This document shows, one piece after another, positions 50,222-59,292 of a stretch of 64,000 nucleotides of DNA. Source of the DNA: Hahella sp. (GTDB lineage: Bacteria; Pseudomonadota; Gammaproteobacteria; Pseudomonadales; Oleiphilaceae); NCBI GenBank assembly GCA_028280065.1, contig JANQMN010000069.1, positions 29,424 to 93,423 on the forward strand, in the 5' to 3' direction. The translations under genes were made by a program, and so were the position numbers. The notes beneath the pieces are model-generated. The model did not search any database and was not told the DNA's origin. It was given only the letters and a program-made list of their open reading frames with translations. The first letter of the stretch is position 1. Each line of letters starts with the position of its first letter.

Positions 50222-51202
50222 CTAGAGAGATACCGTGAGGAGACGATCCAACATATAGCGCACGTGTTGCATTTGGTAAAAAACGTCGGAAGGAGTCTTA
50301 TTCTGTGCCGGTTCGGCCGCAGGTGTTGCACTGTGGACCTGCAAAGGCATTTTCAGCAAGTTGATCTCTGCAATGATGAACTGGGTTTGGGCAAAAACAT
50401 CAATGGGTTGAATCTGGCCGAAGGCATCGATAGCCGGTGCATCTATTTCTGCAAGACTGAATTTTTTCCGGATGTCGTTGAGTAGGTTACGCACGTCGAG
50501 AGCCAGCTTTAAAACATCGCCAGGACTTTTTCCCGGCGTAAAGGAAGCCATTCTAGAACCGTCCGGATGCATCCCGTACTTGGCAGTGATTAACGCGCGT
50601 TTAGTCGTTTCCTGGTCGCTTGGCATGCGCTGGGACAGGGTAAGCAATAAATTCTGTAAATCTTTATTGGCCCGCAATGTATGGGCATAGACTACATTCG
50701 GACTTACCGCTTTGTTGCCATTTAATCGGTTGAGTTTATAGAACAGATTCAGAAGTACGCCATAAACGTCGGAAGGGCTCTTGTTGGAGAACTGGTCCGG
50801 GGAAATATTTACATAGCCAATGGTATCGCGATATCTGAATTCCAAGTGGTTTTTCAGTATTTGCGATCCGAAGTACACGCTGGTAGGAGAGTATTCTATC
50901 GGTGTGGAAAACAGCCTCGGTGGCGGAGGCTTTCCTGAACCGAGCGTGTACTCGTAAAGTTCCGCCAATACCGACGCTTGTAACTCATAGACATGCATGG
51001 GCTTTGCGTCCGATTCCCGTGAAGTAGGCAACTGCAGATTGCCGATTCCTTGCGCCTGCAGGATCGAGTCGACAAGACGGTTGCTGTATTCCAGACTCCC
51101 AAACACATCGCTTGGTGTGTATTGGTTGGAAGCCTGTACCTGGTAACTCATCGAGAGGATGAAAACGAAGAAAACGAGTTTCTTTATGCAATAGCTACCC
51201 AT
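50222..51202 (-). CDS. Exported protein with internal PxDV helical repeats
   Basis: A 326-residue periplasmic protein; signal peptide to residue 24 (SYQVQAS). The mature chain has about seven helical units, of which the clearest are [78 protein letters not shown] and [20 protein letters not shown]. Each begins [ST]PxDV and continues as an amphipathic helix, 30-60 residues apart. I do not recognise the family. It is 14 bp upstream of a chemoreceptor gene, which suggests that it binds a ligand for, or docks on, that receptor. Confidence 0.78.
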
Positions 51203-51466: not shown

Positions 51467-52015
51467 TTATCGTATGTCAGCCAGTTTCACTCCGATGACA
51501 TACGACCACCAATGATCATTTTTGTTGCTGAATAAGCTATGCCAATACCAGGAAGAAACGTCACTCCAACTATTTCCTGATTGGTCTTTGATAAATTCGC
51601 AGACTCGCAACCTGCTACTGCCTTTGGTCATCGCAAAGCAACCCATGCCGTTTCCAGCTTTATTGGTTTGCATGGGCAAAAATTTTATCGAATAGCCCAC
51701 TCCTCGGAAGCAATCGCTGGCCGGATGTAACTGACGGGTTGGGGCTTGAATCCAGCGGATAATGATCTCGCGGTTGCCGTCGGAAAATCGGGCAATTTTG
51801 CCGGGAAATCGCTGCACGAAACCCTTTTCCCGTTCGCTTAACTCCAGGCGTTTGAGCAGCTTTCCTTCGTAGTGCGTTGGCCAGCCTGGAAAGCTGGATT
51901 CTACATGGGCACTGGACGACAGAGGTGTCCAGATAAGCGACACCACCGCCGCAAAGCCACTGGCGATAATGAGGAATAGAAACTCTAGACGTGAGTTGAT
52001 TTTGCTTTGCCCCAT
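51467..52015 (-). CDS. EpsI-like exosortase-associated protein
   Basis: A 182-residue protein with one N-terminal membrane helix (FLFLIIASGFAAVVSLIW) and an extracytoplasmic domain containing RQLHPASDCFRGVGYSIKF, which resembles the HPPxxC block of EpsI/DUF3485 proteins that accompany exosortases. The start overlaps the exosortase gene by 31 bp. It is the last gene of the exosortase locus on the minus strand. Confidence 0.68.
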   Translation of the reverse strand: MGQSKINSRLEFLFLIIASGFAAVVSLIWTPLSSSAHVESSFPGWPTHYEGKLLKRLELSEREKGFVQRFPGKIARFSDGNREIIIRWIQAPTRQLHPASDCFRGVGYSIKFLPMQTNKAGNGMGCFAMTKGSSRLRVCEFIKDQSGNSWSDVSSWYWHSLFSNKNDHWWSYVIGVKLADIR

Positions 52016-52833
52016 CCGTTTATTCCATTTAATGTCAAAACGATTGCGCCAGCAGTCAAAATAAATGCGGCAGTTCCCACTCCTTCATGCCACCAACTCA
52101 TGGGTAACTCGACTAATCCGCTTTCCAAATGAAACAAACTACTGGCTCTCAGCACATTTCCGAGTAAAACCAATAGACAGCAGGCGAACAAGCCGATGCT
52201 TAAGCGCAGTACTTCCATTCTACTCACAAAGGCAATTACCAGGGTTAAGAACAAACCCGCCCAAAGCATGGTGATACCGCTGCATGGCCCGTCGAATAGC
52301 AGCATTTCGTTTTGCCAGACTAAGTAAGTGCCTTCCTGGCTGACCTGCATTCCATTCATCTTTAACAGGGGTACAGTCAGGCTGGCAGATAGCAGGCGGG
52401 AGGGGTAGCCAAGATAAAACTGCAACGACGGAAGCACAGGCAAAGCGAGTAACACCATACCCCAAAATCCCGCAGGAGGAGGCCGTCCAAAGGCGGCGAA
52501 ATACAAGGTAAGTAAGATGGCTGAAACAGCAATCGCAGCGCGAATGATCGAGGGTGCAAACAGATAGGAGATACCATAGAGCACCATAAGTAACGCAATA
52601 GGAATGACTGGAAAGTAAAAGATTTGCCTATTCTTGCGGATAGCTTGCCAGGCCAAGGCAAGAATCAATGCGAACGCCACCAACAGGGCTACCGCTTCTT
52701 CAGGTGAGTGCCAAGTGCGGTGTAGGTACCACACCCAGGCAGGCCAAAAAGCGACGATCTGAAGACCCATGACGAGAATCAGACGGGCTAGGCTATGCCG
52801 GTTAATCGGTGACGGTGTTGCCGTAAATACCAT
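51985..52833 (-). CDS. Exosortase family transpeptidase-like protein
   Basis: Polytopic membrane protein (about eight helices) of the exosortase/archaeosortase superfamily. Catalytic residues are in LLFDGPCSGITMLWAGL (Cys), GNVLRASSLFHLESG (Arg) and SWWHEGVGTAAF (His), the expected order. It would recognise and process a PEP-CTERM-like tail; the only candidate target nearby is the VIT/VWA protein encoded just upstream. The start at 52833 is preferred over 52869 to reduce overlap with that gene. The subtype is not certain; it may belong with exosortases dedicated to VIT proteins. Confidence 0.86.
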   Translation of the reverse strand: MVFTATPSPINRHSLARLILVMGLQIVAFWPAWVWYLHRTWHSPEEAVALLVAFALILALAWQAIRKNRQIFYFPVIPIALLMVLYGISYLFAPSIIRAAIAVSAILLTLYFAAFGRPPPAGFWGMVLLALPVLPSLQFYLGYPSRLLSASLTVPLLKMNGMQVSQEGTYLVWQNEMLLFDGPCSGITMLWAGLFLTLVIAFVSRMEVLRLSIGLFACCLLVLLGNVLRASSLFHLESGLVELPMSWWHEGVGTAAFILTAGAIVLTLNGINGWGKAKSTHV

Positions 52834-55160
52834 AGGATCAACGCCAAGATGACAAAAAGTAATAGCCATTGATGCGGTTCGGGGATAGTCGGCACAGAAC
52901 CGGCTTCCACAGGTGTCAGGTCGTTTTCCTCATACTGCGCCTGGCTTTCCAGGACAACCGCTCCACTTACAGGGGTAACCAATTGATGCCGGGCTGCGAT
53001 TTCGATGGCACGATCCGTATTGCCTTTTTTATCTTCGGTAATGAGGGATAAGACCTGAGTTTTTGCCCATAACCTGACGATATGCGCAGAACCTCGTTCA
53101 ATTTCGCTGCCCGGACTCCCTTTAAACCGCTTCCACTGATAACCTGGGTGAGTCGAAAATAGTGAGTCGAAATAGTCGGCCAGGTCTTTTTCAACCATGC
53201 CTAGATAGGGCAGTGCTTTCGCTTGCCAGCTCCAGTCTGCGTTATCCATCAGCAGATTCGGACCCAACCCGATACCATACAGGACTATTTTTGGCGTGCG
53301 TGAGAGTCTGGTCATTGCCTGGTCCAGTTTCGCTTGGCTGGCAGTAAAAGCAACCGGCTGAGGAGCATGTACCCAAAGTAACTCTGTTTGAGAGTAGGAT
53401 TCCAGAGCGTGCAACGCATCCGTCAATGCGTGCCCGCTATCTTGGCCACCGGCGAAATCCGTTGCTTCAATTAACTGCTTAAATTGCGCTTTGCGTTTTT
53501 CTGTCCAGGCGCCAATGGTAATAGACGCAGGTGCTTCACTGGCGATGATCAGCCCTATCTGTGTTCCATCGGGAATGCGGTCTAGAGCGGCAACGATAGC
53601 GTCTAGGTACCTGTGCATCTTTGCCGAGCCGTCAATCACCAGCATCAATGCTTCTGGGGGCGTTTGTTCCTCCATCACTAACTGTTGAATAATCGCTTCC
53701 CCAGGTTCTAACTCAGACCAGGATCTGAGTCGTGTTTCATCTTGATCGACCCAAATACTTTTTCTGGAAATCGTCAGGTCCATATCTGAAAGACTGCCCT
53801 GAATTCTGTAGAGCTGTTGGTCGCTTAGATGTTTTGTCGTGACACCGGATAGGTCTGATCGGAGGCTTTGATGGGCTTCGATCCATATTTCGTGCTGTAG
53901 CTTTCGGTCGATGTTGAAGTTGCGGTTTTCAATTGCGGGGAGTATCAGTTGGGCGCTGTCTTTACCGATGAGTTTTAGTGGTGCGGTCATCCCTAGTCGG
54001 AATTTGATCAGGCCGCCGTTCGGCAGGATGGGAAATGCCTGGGCAAGAATCCTGTCTGTTCCCTGGGTAGTGACCAACAGCGGATCTCTGCGCCTTTGTA
54101 CGATGCTTTGGTATGCCTGGCGAACTTGTCTGCGCCCTGCAAAAGCCGCCTCGCTTTCCTCGCCGTTGATCCATAAGGTGGCACGGGACACGACAGCATC
54201 CGGCGGCAATGAAATTTGCAGTCTGGCTTCTCGTTGTCGGTATGAATCGTTACGGAACTCAAACGTCCACTCCAGATAGGCAATGCCGTCATCACTATTC
54301 ACAGAGCCATCCAAACGGGAAGACACCAGGTTTAATCCTTTCAATCTTCCACCCACCTGCGTCCCGCCTTGATCCGCATCGAAGTTCATATCCTCGAACT
54401 GTCTCCAAGCCCGTCCTGCATGGGGAATGGGTTGCAGATTAAAAGGCTCACCGGTAACACGATAGAATATCTCCCTCACTTTTGACGGGTGCGTCGAGCC
54501 TCTATCTTGTAGAAATATAAGGGCAAAACTCAGCGGCCCGGTGGCTTGCCCGTGCCGGTCGTAACAGTGACGAAGCAACAGCTCCTCGTCTCCCCAGCGC
54601 CGCAACAACTCAATACCGCGTCGACTGGTTGTTTGATTGTCGCTGGCTGCCAGGGTGATTCCCCATTTCGTTGCCGCAGTGGGTAGATCCAAAATGACAA
54701 AGGCAAACAGTGCGATTAACAATCCGTGCCAGAGTTTGGTTTTACTTGTGCTTGAATCCTGAGAGACCAGATTTCGATAGAGTTTGATAGTGACGAATAA
54801 AACGATAAGCGGCGCAAGGGAAAGAAATCCCATGCCGAAGATGACAATCGCCATTACAGAGATTGGTGTTAAAGGCAAAAACAGTATCGCATAGAATCCC
54901 GCGATACCAATTGAAATGGCAGACGATAAGATTAACCAGCGCGTGTCGGTAAATCTTTTTTCACGCAGCTGAATCCACAGAAGGCAGTTGGATAGAGGAA
55001 CAAGAAGTACGAGTAAGACATGCCAAATAGTCGGGATCGGGTCAAAAAACGTTTCGGCGCACATACGACTATAGAGTTCAAAGCCGATAACGCCTGCGGG
55101 GTAAATGACACCCAAAAAGAGTAAGACCCAGCCCGGTTTGCGTGTTTTTTTGGTTTCCAT
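52788..55160 (-). CDS. VIT/VWA-domain membrane protein with PEP-CTERM-like sorting tail
   Basis: A protein of about 790 residues. Four N-terminal membrane helices (to about 180) are followed by a vault/inter-alpha-trypsin VIT domain (AFAGRRQVRQAYQSIVQRRR, then DPLLVTTQGTDRILAQAFP) and a von Willebrand A-like domain (ALMLVIDGSAKMHRYLDAIV; the MIDAS is DGSAK, lacking the second Ser). The C-terminus reads VPTIPEPHQWLLLFVILALI then WYLRQHRHR: a PEP motif, one helix and a basic end. This is the form of an exosortase target. The exosortase gene overlaps its 3' end. Confidence 0.85.
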   Translation of the reverse strand: METKKTRKPGWVLLFLGVIYPAGVIGFELYSRMCAETFFDPIPTIWHVLLVLLVPLSNCLLWIQLREKRFTDTRWLILSSAISIGIAGFYAILFLPLTPISVMAIVIFGMGFLSLAPLIVLFVTIKLYRNLVSQDSSTSKTKLWHGLLIALFAFVILDLPTAATKWGITLAASDNQTTSRRGIELLRRWGDEELLLRHCYDRHGQATGPLSFALIFLQDRGSTHPSKVREIFYRVTGEPFNLQPIPHAGRAWRQFEDMNFDADQGGTQVGGRLKGLNLVSSRLDGSVNSDDGIAYLEWTFEFRNDSYRQREARLQISLPPDAVVSRATLWINGEESEAAFAGRRQVRQAYQSIVQRRRDPLLVTTQGTDRILAQAFPILPNGGLIKFRLGMTAPLKLIGKDSAQLILPAIENRNFNIDRKLQHEIWIEAHQSLRSDLSGVTTKHLSDQQLYRIQGSLSDMDLTISRKSIWVDQDETRLRSWSELEPGEAIIQQLVMEEQTPPEALMLVIDGSAKMHRYLDAIVAALDRIPDGTQIGLIIASEAPASITIGAWTEKRKAQFKQLIEATDFAGGQDSGHALTDALHALESYSQTELLWVHAPQPVAFTASQAKLDQAMTRLSRTPKIVLYGIGLGPNLLMDNADWSWQAKALPYLGMVEKDLADYFDSLFSTHPGYQWKRFKGSPGSEIERGSAHIVRLWAKTQVLSLITEDKKGNTDRAIEIAARHQLVTPVSGAVVLESQAQYEENDLTPVEAGSVPTIPEPHQWLLLFVILALILWYLRQHRHRLTGIA

Positions 55161-55269
55161 AGGCTGCAAGGGAATAAGCCAGTCGATCCATTGATAGTAT
55201 AGGTGTAATAGGGCGATGTTATGGATGGATATGACGAATTCTGTTGAATAGAGGCGGTCGGATTATTAC

Positions 55270-56025
55270 TTACAATCTTTCTACCAACTTTCCGTAGCCG
55301 CTGCGGCTTATTGCATACTGACTGCCGTCTTTCATGGTGGCAAATCGCGAGTCTTTGCCTTCCATTTCGATACTCTTCAAAAAATCCAAGTTTATCAATG
55401 TGGAGCGATGGATGCGGCAAAAAAGCTGGGAGTCCAACTGTTCCTCCAACTTGGATAAGCGGTCTTGCTTAATATGAGACTGATCGGCAATGTGAATCAC
55501 CACATAATCATCGGCAGCTTCAATGGCAATAACATCGCTAGTTGCGATTACGTGTACTTCATCTTTATCGCGAATCAACAAACGCCGTAAAGGGCCTTGA
55601 TGTTGTTTCATCTCTGCGATTACGGCTTTGTTCTTGGGAGCCTCCGTCTGGGCCTGGCCTTTGCGTTCTTCAATGCGCTTTACACTCGCGGCCAATCGAT
55701 CTTTACTTACAGGTTTTAGTAAGTAGTCCACGGCATTGCTTTTAAATGCCTGGATTGCGTATTCATCATAGGCAGTCACGAAGACTACCAGAGGCGTGTG
55801 GTCACCCAAGAGTTCTAGTACTTCAAAGCCATCGAGCTTGGGCATATGAATATCTAAAAAAATTACGTCGGGATTGAGATCATTAACGGCTTTTACAGCC
55901 TCTTTGCCATTTTCGCATTCGGCTAAAATTTCAATTTGCGGATGGTCTTTTAGTAAATGCTGCAGCGCCACTCGTGCATGAGATTCGTCATCAATAATCA
56001 GGGCACTAATTGTTGACTCTTTCAT
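55270..56025 (-). CDS. LytTR family response regulator
   Basis: A 251-residue regulator: REC domain with D58 (VIFLDIHMPKLDG) and a C-terminal LytTR DNA-binding domain (VIAIEAADDYVVIH, FCRIHRSTLINLDFLKSIE). It overlaps the histidine kinase gene by 4 bp. With the kinase it forms a LytS/LytR-type system, and the VIT-exosortase genes 100 bp downstream on the same strand are its likely targets or co-transcribed partners. Confidence 0.93.
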   Translation of the reverse strand: MKESTISALIIDDESHARVALQHLLKDHPQIEILAECENGKEAVKAVNDLNPDVIFLDIHMPKLDGFEVLELLGDHTPLVVFVTAYDEYAIQAFKSNAVDYLLKPVSKDRLAASVKRIEERKGQAQTEAPKNKAVIAEMKQHQGPLRRLLIRDKDEVHVIATSDVIAIEAADDYVVIHIADQSHIKQDRLSKLEEQLDSQLFCRIHRSTLINLDFLKSIEMEGKDSRFATMKDGSQYAISRSGYGKLVERL

Positions 56026-57116
56026 TGCATAGCCTCAAGGCGCAGTGCCGGCGGTAATTTAGGTAACTGAATGGTTACTGAAAATGTGGTGTCTGCTTTA
56101 TTGGTGGTAAAAAGAACTGCTACGCCGTAATTTGCGGTTAGGCGTTTTCTAAGTGTGCTTAACCCGTGGCCGGTCCCTTGCGATTTAATGCCAAGGGGAT
56201 CAAAGCTGTTAATTACTTCCAATCGAATACTGTCCCTGCCTTCAGTCAATGCTATATCGATGTAGCCGCCATCAAGCTGTGATTGAATGCCGTGTTTTAT
56301 GGCGTTCTCCACCAACGGAAACAGCACTAATGGTAGCGTTGGAATTTCCAGGTCTATTGCGTCAGTTTGATAGTTAACCCTTAGTTTGTCACCAAAGCGT
56401 TCTTGCTCTATGGCCAAATAGTTTTTGATGTGGCCGATTTCATCTCCCAATGTAACGATTGGCTTTTTCCCGTAACTAACACTGTAGCGCAAGAAGTCGG
56501 ACATCTTTACGCATATGCCGTGAATTTTTTCGGGCTCGGACAGCGATAGGTTCGCCAACATATTTAGGCTGTTGTACATGAAATGCGGGTGAACAGTGGC
56601 GCGAAGCGCTTGCAATTCGATTGAGCTGATCAAAAGTTGCTGTTCCAGTACCTTCGCATTCTGTACCTTGTCGCCTGCAGCGGTAAGAAAACTATAATGC
56701 ACCATGAGCCATACACCATAAACCAAAACGCCGATCAATGTATGATAGAGCAGCAGAGGGCTATACAGTAAGTGAACGTTTTGAAGTCCGATAATGTCGA
56801 GCAGGATTGTCCAGCCCCATCCCGATAGCAGCCATAAACCTACAGTAGTTAGAGCCGCAAGCCCGTGCGCAACTATAAGGACAAGGATATCCGTCTGATC
56901 CAGGGAAAGCCGGCGACAGAGATACAGGTTGGATATGGAAAAGAACAGTAACAGGTAATACCAAGGCAATAGTTGCACGGATGCAGTAAACCAATGGATT
57001 AACTCACCGCCTGCCTGCGCCAGCTGTAGTAATATGAATGCCAACACTACGCATAGCAATGCCCACAAAATGGACAAGCTAAAAAAACTGCGGTTTGAAA
57101 TAAATAACGGATGCAT
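56022..57116 (-). CDS. LytS-type sensor histidine kinase
   Basis: A 364-residue kinase of the His_kinase (PF06580) class. About four membrane helices (to residue 155) lead to the phospho-acceptor block LRATVHPHFMYNSLNML, the N-box PLVENAIKHGI and the G-box GTGHGLSTLRKRL. There is no large external domain, so it probably senses the membrane or a partner such as the LiaF-like protein. Its 5' end is repeated in degenerate form upstream (see tandem duplication). Confidence 0.92.
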   Translation of the reverse strand: MHPLFISNRSFFSLSILWALLCVVLAFILLQLAQAGGELIHWFTASVQLLPWYYLLLFFSISNLYLCRRLSLDQTDILVLIVAHGLAALTTVGLWLLSGWGWTILLDIIGLQNVHLLYSPLLLYHTLIGVLVYGVWLMVHYSFLTAAGDKVQNAKVLEQQLLISSIELQALRATVHPHFMYNSLNMLANLSLSEPEKIHGICVKMSDFLRYSVSYGKKPIVTLGDEIGHIKNYLAIEQERFGDKLRVNYQTDAIDLEIPTLPLVLFPLVENAIKHGIQSQLDGGYIDIALTEGRDSIRLEVINSFDPLGIKSQGTGHGLSTLRKRLTANYGVAVLFTTNKADTTFSVTIQLPKLPPALRLEAMQ

Positions 57117-57144
57117 CTGTCCAGTGTCTTTTTGGCGAGTTCAC

Positions 57145-57675
57145 TTAGTTGGTAATTTCCACACCACCCATTATCGCAACACCGGAAATGATGAGATGTT
57201 TTTCCGGTGCGCCTACTTTGTCCGCTAAGTAAGTTGTGGAGTTCGAGACACCCGCTAGGATGGGCAGTATTCTTGAACTGACAGTGAAGTGTCGCGGCAC
57301 TTGAATTTCCACACCGCCCACGATTGAAATCACTTCAATTTCAATCGTATTGTTCTGACTCTCGGCTTCGCGAATATCAATTTCGACACCGCCCAAAATG
57401 GCCGTGGCATTGCCACCGGTAACGTTGCTGGAGCGGGTAGCGAACTTGCCGCCATCGAGCAACCGAAGCATGTTGATTTTAACGGGTTCCGCAGTACTTC
57501 TGTTTAATCCGGAGGAAGTCGGCGATATGGGTCCAGGTTGGATTGAAAAGAAAACAATAATAAGTAGCGCAAAGACAATGATTGCGCCGACGCAGTAAAC
57601 CAACAAACTCGTCCGCCATATACCTTTGCCAGCTGCAACTGCCAGAGTGCGATCACTTTGCATAACAATGCCCAT
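57145..57675 (-). CDS. Chimeric LiaF-domain protein born from a tandem duplication
   Basis: A 176-residue protein. Residues 65-176 repeat the C-terminal domain of the neighbouring LiaF-like protein almost word for word (GGKFATRSSNVTGGNATAIL, GVEIDIREAESQ, EKHLIISGVAIMGGVEITN). The first 60 residues, including a membrane helix (LVYCVGAIIVFALLIIVFF), come from a different reading frame of a duplicated 5' end of the kinase gene. The intact kinase starts 28 bp after its stop. It keeps a plausible membrane-anchored topology, so it may be functional. Confidence 0.78.
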   Translation of the reverse strand: MGIVMQSDRTLAVAAGKGIWRTSLLVYCVGAIIVFALLIIVFFSIQPGPISPTSSGLNRSTAEPVKINMLRLLDGGKFATRSSNVTGGNATAILGGVEIDIREAESQNNTIEIEVISIVGGVEIQVPRHFTVSSRILPILAGVSNSTTYLADKVGAPEKHLIISGVAIMGGVEITN

Positions 57676-57752
57676 GATATTGACCGAGTAAGAAGTTGCG
57701 ATTTAGTGTGAATAACAGGTGCGTTTGCCCAATAACTCAAAGGCAAGTTCAC
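57504..57752 (-). pseudogene. Duplicated 5' fragment of the LytS-type kinase gene
   Basis: In this frame the translation SISWALLCKVIALWQLQLAK matches SILWALLCVVLAFILLQLAQ of the intact kinase; WFTASAQSLSLRYLLLF matches WFTASVQLLPWYYLLLF; and DPYRRLPPD matches LCRRLSLD. It stops where copy 2 ends. The coding frame is decayed and the same DNA is now read in another frame by the chimeric LiaF-domain gene. Confidence 0.75.
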
Positions 57753-58541
57753 CTAGTTGGTAATTTCCACACCACCCAATATCGCGACACCGGAAATGAT
57801 GAGATGCTTTTCCGGTACGCCTAATTTGTGCGCTAAGCAGGTTGTCGTATCGGTAACGCCCGCCAGAATCGGTAACACTTTGGAGCTGACACTGAAGTGT
57901 GGGGGTACTTGTATCTCAACTCCACCCATAATGGAAATCACTTCAATTTCAATGGTTTTGCTCTGGCTCTCGGCTTCGCGAATATCAATTTCTACACCGC
58001 CCAGAATCGCTGTGGCATTACCACCGGTAACGTTATTGGAGCGTGTAGCGAACTTGCCACCGCCAAGCAAAGTAAACATGTCGATTTTAACGGCTTTAAC
58101 TTCTTTAGCATTCTGGCCGCTAGTCTCGTTTCCGGTCTCCACCAGTTCGCCTTCAATAACACCCTCAGATTGATTCTCAAATTGGCTATCCCCGGCGGAT
58201 TTGGCGGATTGCGACCGAATCAATTGGAAACCCACGAATAATAGAATCACCGGAATCAGTATCGCGCCCAGGCCAAAATTGAGTATGTGCATATTGGCCA
58301 ACTGGAACAAAACGCCTGCTCCTATCAATACATGAGGCAGATATCTGCGGCCGTTTTGTTGCCGTTTCCCCCTGCGGCGGTTGAGCATAATAATGCCCAA
58401 AATAATCAGCAAAACGGGCCAATTGCGAACCACCATGCCGAGGAGGGGAATACCGATATTGCTCAAAAACAACAATACGGCAAATATAATCAGGCCTATC
58501 CCAAGAATACTGCGCGTATTTAAATTATCGTATTTGGACAT
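57753..58541 (-). CDS. LiaF-like membrane protein (cell envelope stress regulator type)
   Basis: A protein of 262 residues from the ATG at 58541 (AAAGGA 6 bp upstream; the frame is open 20 codons further). Four membrane helices (residues about 8-130) are followed by a linker and a C-terminal beta-rich domain of LiaF/PF09922 type with repeated GGVEI elements (AILGGVEIDIREAES, SIMGGVEIQVP, GVAILGGVEITN). In firmicutes LiaF inhibits a LiaS kinase; here the adjacent LytS-type kinase is the natural partner. Confidence 0.85.
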   Translation of the reverse strand: MSKYDNLNTRSILGIGLIIFAVLLFLSNIGIPLLGMVVRNWPVLLIILGIIMLNRRRGKRQQNGRRYLPHVLIGAGVLFQLANMHILNFGLGAILIPVILLFVGFQLIRSQSAKSAGDSQFENQSEGVIEGELVETGNETSGQNAKEVKAVKIDMFTLLGGGKFATRSNNVTGGNATAILGGVEIDIREAESQSKTIEIEVISIMGGVEIQVPPHFSVSSKVLPILAGVTDTTTCLAHKLGVPEKHLIISGVAILGGVEITN

Positions 58542-58581
58542 GTGTATTCCTTTCTCTGCTGGAAAGTTGTAACAAGGCAAA

Positions 58582-59028
58582 TTATTCAGGTTTTTTGCCA
58601 TTATCGGTATCGCCTGAATTGTCTGTGCTCTTGTCAGACTTGTCCACAGTTGAAGGCTCTTCGACTTCGATGATTTCGCCGCTCCCGGATTCTTGCTTAT
58701 TACTGGCCGGCGGATTTGCTACCTTGTTCTTAGGCCGAGGATCATGTTTGCCGGCAAACGGAAAAGGTCTTTCCTCAGTGTTGTAGCTGACAAAGCGCAA
58801 AGCGCTATTGATAAAGTCAATCAGCGTTGCGGACAACTTGCGCACGTTATCGTTATCGGTACCAAATATCAGCGCGCATAAAAATTGTACGGCACATAGC
58901 AGCCACATTACGCCGCCAGCCACGTGCAGCATGATTCCGTAAATCAACATGTAGACCAAGCGGATCCAACTGTTTTGGTTGCTGATGTTTTCGAAAATCT
59001 GTTCTTGATCAATGGTTTGTTGTGCCAT
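58582..59028 (-). CDS. DUF4389 family membrane protein
   Basis: A 148-residue protein. The N-terminal half is a DUF4389 domain with two membrane helices (WIRLVYMLIYGIMLHVAGGV, AVQFLCALIFGTDNDN) and the family end mark NTEERPFPF near residue 90. The C-terminal 50 residues are low-complexity and acidic, rich in Ser, Asp and Lys. It is the first gene of the LiaF-LytSR-exosortase run on the minus strand. Function unknown. Confidence 0.85.
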   Translation of the reverse strand: MAQQTIDQEQIFENISNQNSWIRLVYMLIYGIMLHVAGGVMWLLCAVQFLCALIFGTDNDNVRKLSATLIDFINSALRFVSYNTEERPFPFAGKHDPRPKNKVANPPASNKQESGSGEIIEVEEPSTVDKSDKSTDNSGDTDNGKKPE

Positions 59029-59067: not shown

Positions 59068-59292
59068 TTAACTGGCTGCCTTTTGGGTCTCAAGTCGGTC
59101 AATGACACCTAGAGGTCGGTAAATGACGTTGGGATCGGTGATTGGTGCATTGTGGCGGGGATTTATTGATGGCAGTGCTTTGAAAAGGGGCTTGAACTTT
59201 AGCTTTAAGAGTTTGTTTTGGCTCTGAAGTTCTGCGGAACGAATACTAGTCGTTGGATATATCTCGAAAGATGGGATGCACTCCCTCGCCAA
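59068..59292 (-). CDS. Possible small protein
   Basis: A 74-residue frame whose C-terminal half (INPRHNAPITDPNVIYRPLG, VIDRLETQKAAS) looks coding, but whose 5' end overlaps the next gene by 47 bp. No recognised family. It could be a real short gene or a remnant. Confidence 0.25.
   Translation of the reverse strand: MARECIPSFEIYPTTSIRSAELQSQNKLLKLKFKPLFKALPSINPRHNAPITDPNVIYRPLGVIDRLETQKAAS

Follow-up and report, generated by a model that had tools for sequence, protein, structure and literature searches.

A VIT protein, exosortase and EpsI-like gene cassette beside a Lia-type LytTR operon in Hahella

The gene run and its surroundings

The locus lies on the minus strand of a 64,000-nucleotide contig segment of Hahella sp. 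(the window) and comprises eight genes between positions 51467 and 59028. The earlier note had listed eight named families here, in one direction and with several overlaps, and we confirmed the coordinates, strand and family match of all eight. The overlaps are real and occur between DUF4389 and LiaF, LytS and LytTR, VIT and exosortase, and exosortase and EpsI. The run opens with a DUF4389 small membrane protein (58582–59028; PF14333, 87.2 bits, cut-off 25), preceded on the same strand by a putative LytTR operator, a tandem direct repeat with 21-bp spacing (59094–59127). LiaF follows (57753–58601), with a LiaF-TM domain (PF22570, 63.7 bits, cut-off 27) and a LiaF-like C-terminal or Toastrack domain (PF09922, 21.2 bits, below the cut-off of 29), and next to it is a short chimeric LiaF-like protein (57145–57675) composed of a single transmembrane (TM) helix and a second LiaF C-terminal domain (22 bits, below the Pfam cut-off of 29). 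A LytS-type (His_kinase) membrane sensor kinase (56022–57116; PF06580, 80.9 bits) and a response regulator with a LytTR DNA-binding domain (55270–56025; PF00072, 86.2 bits; PF04397, 75.3 bits) complete this part of the run. The remaining genes encode a VIT/VWA protein (52788–55169; PF08487, 41.9 bits; VWA, 21 bits, below cut-off), an exosortase (51985–52869; PF09721, 75.8 bits, cut-off 25.7; TIGR04178, 36.9 bits, cut-off 23) and an EpsI-like helper protein (51467–52015; 46 bits to residues 294–444, the EpsI-like end, of the XrtT model).

The source genome is a draft of 6.68 Mb in 151 contigs, 98% complete with 3% contamination, and genome-wide counts are therefore lower bounds. Between the EpsI-like gene and two chemoreceptor genes lies a gene for a secreted-looking protein with repeated TPSDVF motifs (50222–51202), to which no family matched.

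The VIT protein and its exosortase

The VIT protein probably starts at the ATG at 55160 rather than at the TTG at 55169, and hydropathy places about five TM segments at its N-terminus. In the AlphaFold model (pLDDT 87.4, 32 sequences), an N-terminal helical membrane part is followed by the VIT domain, the VWA domain and one further domain, with a C-terminal helix behind the PEP motif. Inter-alpha-inhibitor heavy chain 1 (6fpy) matches model residues 275–746 with a Foldseek E value of 2.5e-22 (Z 16.6, rmsd 8.3 over 421 residues), in agreement with a profile search that matched heavy chains H4 and H1. The predicted ectodomain has the inter-alpha-inhibitor heavy-chain fold, with the VIT, VWA and following domains in the same arrangement. 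Part of the VWA metal site is conserved: D513 is present in 33/33 and S515 in 32/33 sequences, and the third position is variable. The best curated match of the protein is TIGR04477, the XrtN system VIT protein (135.7 bits, below the cut-off of 250), and the marine_srt_targ target model gives 16.8 bits against a cut-off of 551.65. On these scores the VIT subfamily falls outside the curated families.

The tail reads VPTIPEPHQW-TM-RQHRHRL, that is, a PEP motif, a short TM segment and a basic end, and PEP or PEA is conserved in the VIT tails that we collected. The general PEP-CTERM model TIGR02595 (cut-off 16 bits) did not report the VIT tail in a scan of its own genome at E values up to 1.

The exosortase is assigned to the exosortase superfamily by PF09721 and TIGR04178, both above cut-off, and by the conserved Cys, Arg and His, with Cys196, Arg241 and His261 invariant in 33/33 sequences. 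Its nearest curated family is XrtQ (NF012182; 137.3 bits, below the cut-off of 270), against which relatives score 139–147 bits; the XrtN model TIGR04476 gives 29 bits (cut-off 200). Its reading frame and the VIT gene have 82 nt in common, or 46 nt if the second Met is the start. In the EpsI-like protein, His97 and Cys102 are invariant in 33/33 sequences. This protein has no Pfam match and was not listed by the EpsI model TIGR02914 (cut-off 42.8 bits) at E values up to 0.1.

The earlier note had described the VIT protein as the only visible exosortase substrate and had taken many other PEP-CTERM targets in the genome to count against a self-contained module. The genome-wide scan found about 18 other ordinary PEP-CTERM tails, on other contigs, and a standard XrtA system (contig C104; XrtA 288 bits, cut-off 208), so the description is true of the window and not of the genome, and taken literally the module claim fails on this count. 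The XrtA/PEP-CTERM locus (C104:1-20000) also carries two exosortase-associated acyltransferase genes and PrsT. The picture is different for tails of the cassette type: a profile built from 27 cassette tails, the VIT tail itself being one of its rows, scores the VIT tail at 63.7 bits and the next protein of this genome at 17.6. Cassette-linked tails carry 0.71 glycines per 22 residues versus 2.24 in unlinked VIT proteins (Mann–Whitney p 1e-8, kinship ignored); with kinship taken in, the direction is the same and the difference is not significant, over only 2–4 independent contrasts.

Spread of the cassette and features of the Lia-type operon

In a search of members of the same order the VIT protein turned up in the source genome only (1/293). 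A class-wide sample contained two true relatives, in genomes G590 (38%) and G450 (36%); both are in VIT–exosortase–EpsI order, both lack LiaF and LytSR, and beside each is a divergent two-component system of CreBC-like type. Matches in three further genomes (G467, G323 and G563) were set aside as other VIT proteins, being weak and confined to the VIT region. Scanning 84,980 genomes with a three-protein alignment gave 80 loci, two of which (L061 and L018) carry the same cassette. An exosortase adjoins 39 of the 83 collected VIT genes (window included), mostly with EpsI next, which leaves about 37 other independent loci. Adjacent VIT–exosortase loci occur in Pseudomonadota, Thermodesulfobacteriota, Acidobacteriota, Sumerlaeota, Armatimonadota, Planctomycetota, Hydrogenedentota, Verrucomicrobiota, Kiritimatiellota and one Bacillota metagenome-assembled genome (MAG), a spread over nine or more phyla in which single assignments may be wrong because most of the genomes are MAGs. 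No VIT protein was found on plasmids or in viral contigs, and a search of the open-access literature found no paper on an exosortase with a VIT domain, XrtN or LytTR.

At many loci the VIT 3' end and the exosortase reading frame share 79–100 nt, and at other loci 4 or 14 nt, counted from the earliest possible start. Protein distances are correlated (VIT/Xrt r 0.85, VIT/EpsI 0.75, Xrt/EpsI 0.75; Mantel p 0.0005). The overlap, the correlated distances and the invariant residues together show that target and enzyme genes are co-inherited across phyla, and they suggest that the two are translationally coupled. In the genomes of L029, L037, L067 and L094 the exosortase of the cassette is the only one. 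VIT genes without an exosortase beside them come mostly from Verrucomicrobiota and related groups; of 19 such genomes tested, 18 have an exosortase elsewhere. The VIT family appears to switch between a shared and a dedicated enzyme, at least two such changes being forced on the tree. Many Verrucomicrobiota have an unlinked VIT gene, and a small open reading frame just upstream of it is conserved in about 21 loci (for example L035:9309-9692, L036:4526-4876 and L039:9403-9744).

The genes that flank the cassette differ between lineages. The regulators beside it are CreBC-like (L017, L061), CreB-like (L037), AsnC-type (L026, L027, L031) or missing. CreB-like regulators lie divergently upstream of the cassette in three genomes (L017:12033-14416, L018:5912-8358 and L037:9026-9835), accompanied in L017 and L018 by a CreC-like kinase, which in L018 is split into two frames, and the AsnC/Lrp-type regulators that adjoin it elsewhere are homologous (L026:6626-7084, L027:9242-9787 and L031:3873-4325). 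LiaF, LytS and DUF4389 are absent from all of the approximately 37 other VIT–exosortase loci, about 25 of which have at least 5 kb of upstream sequence. LiaF, LytS and LytTR in turn occur without VIT or exosortase in another genome (G564, locus L124). Hence the modules are independent, and the locus consists of two separable units, a VIT–exosortase–EpsI cassette and a Lia-type operon of DUF4389, LiaF, the chimera (LiaF'), LytS and LytTR. The earlier note had counted LiaF–LytSR as part of the exosortase module and had held that frequent occurrence of the exosortase pair without these genes would speak against this. Read to the letter, the distribution of the cassette does so, and LiaF–LytSR as a part of the module is not supported beyond this genome.

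Within the Lia-type operon, the LytTR regulator scores 179.5 bits against the BtsR-type model NF008677, below its cut-off of 246. A PDB sequence search with LiaF gave no match, and neither a PspA homologue nor LiaI was recognised in the gene run. The LiaF-like chimera to which the earlier note drew attention is real, and it is explained by a 608-bp tandem duplication that runs from the last part of LiaF into the first part of LytS (window 56890–57989). The C-terminal copies of LiaF and the chimera are identical at 95 of 123 residues, and their dN of 0.14 and dS of 0.80 (dN/dS about 0.18) make the chimera appear to be kept under purifying selection. The LytS start codon was lost in the duplicated copy and the chimera begins in another frame, so that its membrane helix (residues 18–52) comes from kinase-coding DNA translated in a different frame.

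Upstream of DUF4389, the minus strand reads GTCATTTACCGAC-N8-GTCATTGACCGAC, two 13-bp repeats that are identical at 12 of 13 positions and lie 21 bp apart, start to start. A −35-like TTGAGA comes directly after the tandem repeat, with TAAAAG 17 bp further. A search of the 6.68-Mb genome that allowed up to 3 mismatches found no second copy of the repeat, and shuffling the window 100 times produced none. LytTR sites are typically pairs of direct repeats spaced by about 21 bp. At locus L124 of genome G564, CGTTCGCCGGTT and CGTTCACCGGTT stand 21 bp apart before the LiaF genes, and the equal spacing and similar cores in two LytTR operons support the view that 59094–59127 is a putative autoregulatory LytTR site.

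Neither a terminator nor a promoter is listed for the gap of about 100 bp between LytTR and VIT; across the region, matches to promoter and terminator consensus occur no more often than in shuffled sequence. With no clear terminator over so short a distance, read-through from LytTR into VIT is plausible, as is a single stress-regulated transcript over both modules, and a weak promoter may lie within the gap. The best candidate for a LytTR half site before VIT has 3 mismatches, and we set it aside as unconvincing. What stands of the earlier note's regulatory claim is that stress control of the cassette could still operate in this genome, given the unique LytTR-type tandem site and the lack of a clear terminator; a general link between LiaF–LytSR and the cassette finds no support, LiaF–LytSR being absent from the other cassettes.

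Interpretation and known systems

Our preferred explanation, which we hold with somewhat better than even confidence, is that a dedicated cassette and a Lia-type operon are co-transcribed under membrane stress via the LytTR site. The product of the cassette would be a polytopic VIT/VWA protein of the cell surface, and its own XrtQ-like exosortase would cut the PEP-CTERM-like tail, as we infer from the exosortase family. The cut ectodomain would be released or re-anchored, with the EpsI-like protein assisting. The Lia-type operon would sense the membrane, LiaF and its duplicated partner binding or restraining LytS; LytS would activate the LytTR regulator, which would bind the tandem site before DUF4389 and raise its own operon. 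The transcript would probably run on into VIT, exosortase and EpsI, so that membrane stress raises the single target and its enzyme together. This read-through or stress step seems the least certain of the proposal, and lineage-specific. In a stronger form, a LiaF-tuned LytS–LytTR pair with a single operator in the genome would share one transcript with its own sensors, a dedicated exosortase and the sole target, the envelope state would set the sorting of one protein and the second LiaF would tune the switch; we offer this tentatively, as a possibility that we would not bet on.

The two units may instead be chance neighbours that are expressed and work independently, the cassette having come to lie downstream of an autoregulated Lia-type operon by insertion. 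That each module is found without the other fits such an origin, as do the varying flanks of the cassette and the six congeners, which have no DNA matching the locus apart from MCP-domain matches and no close relative of the cassette exosortase. The shared strand, the short gap and the lack of a clear terminator are less easily put down to chance, however, and a regulator whose operator is unique in the genome would be left without another obvious target. We regard chance neighbours as a serious but minority possibility. Dedication itself can also be questioned: the VIT protein might be one more XrtA client, with the cassette exosortase also serving other PEP-CTERM proteins. The presence of XrtA and about 18 PEP-CTERM proteins would favour this, and so would the unlinked VIT genes of Verrucomicrobiota and related groups with their exosortases elsewhere, but the VIT protein alone carries a cassette-type tail here, the general PEP-CTERM model did not report that tail, and across phyla the enzyme diverges in step with its target and the two genes overlap. 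We consider a non-dedicated enzyme improbable. As far as sequence comparison goes, the dedicated pairing is supported, and so is the earlier note's exosortase with one target, since the cassette recurs across phyla and the sole cassette-type tail of this genome is that of the VIT protein.

Since one exosortase usually acts on many clients, these enzymes make difficult subjects of study. A compact set of one enzyme, one client and one helper that many phyla share, and that scores below the cut-offs of all the curated exosortase–target families tried, would open the reaction to tests with two or three genes. With the unique operator one can also ask directly whether envelope stress can be made to control surface sorting.

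Dedicated sorting systems, in which an enzyme has one target in its genome, have been described as a concept, as have VIT/VWA proteins with LPXTG, PEP-CTERM and GlyGly-CTERM tails (PMC3237569). The XrtN system (TIGR04476/TIGR04477) likewise pairs an exosortase with a large polytopic VIT protein, but the VIT protein of our locus stays below its cut-off (135.7 against 250 bits) and the exosortase is nearer XrtQ than XrtN (137 vs 29 bits). The Proteobacterial dedicated sortase system (marine_srt_targ, TIGR03784/3785/3787) is a functional analogue, in which a single VIT/VWA target is encoded next to its enzyme (PMC3237569) and, judged by family names, a two-component system is present as well; it uses a sortase and LPXTG, whereas here an exosortase and PEP are found and the run has no sortase. 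Toastrack/LiaF-TM proteins are known with two-component systems, Proteobacteria included, and with LytTR in Firmicutes (PMC11237479). Our operon shares with these LiaFSR or Lia-type Toastrack operons the LiaF-TM domain and, at 21–22 bits and so below the cut-off of 29, a probable LiaF-like C-terminal domain, beside a kinase and regulator, and differs in having a LytS-type kinase (PF06580) and LytTR in place of the LiaS/LiaR types. With the XrtA/PEP-CTERM system the cassette has the enzyme superfamily and the PEP tail in common, but XrtA serves many clients with G-rich tails, whereas the cassette exosortase adjoins a single client with a G-poor tail. A dedicated sorting enzyme with a VIT/VWA target is already known; new are the XrtQ-like enzyme, a VIT subfamily outside the curated families and the wide spread of the cassette.
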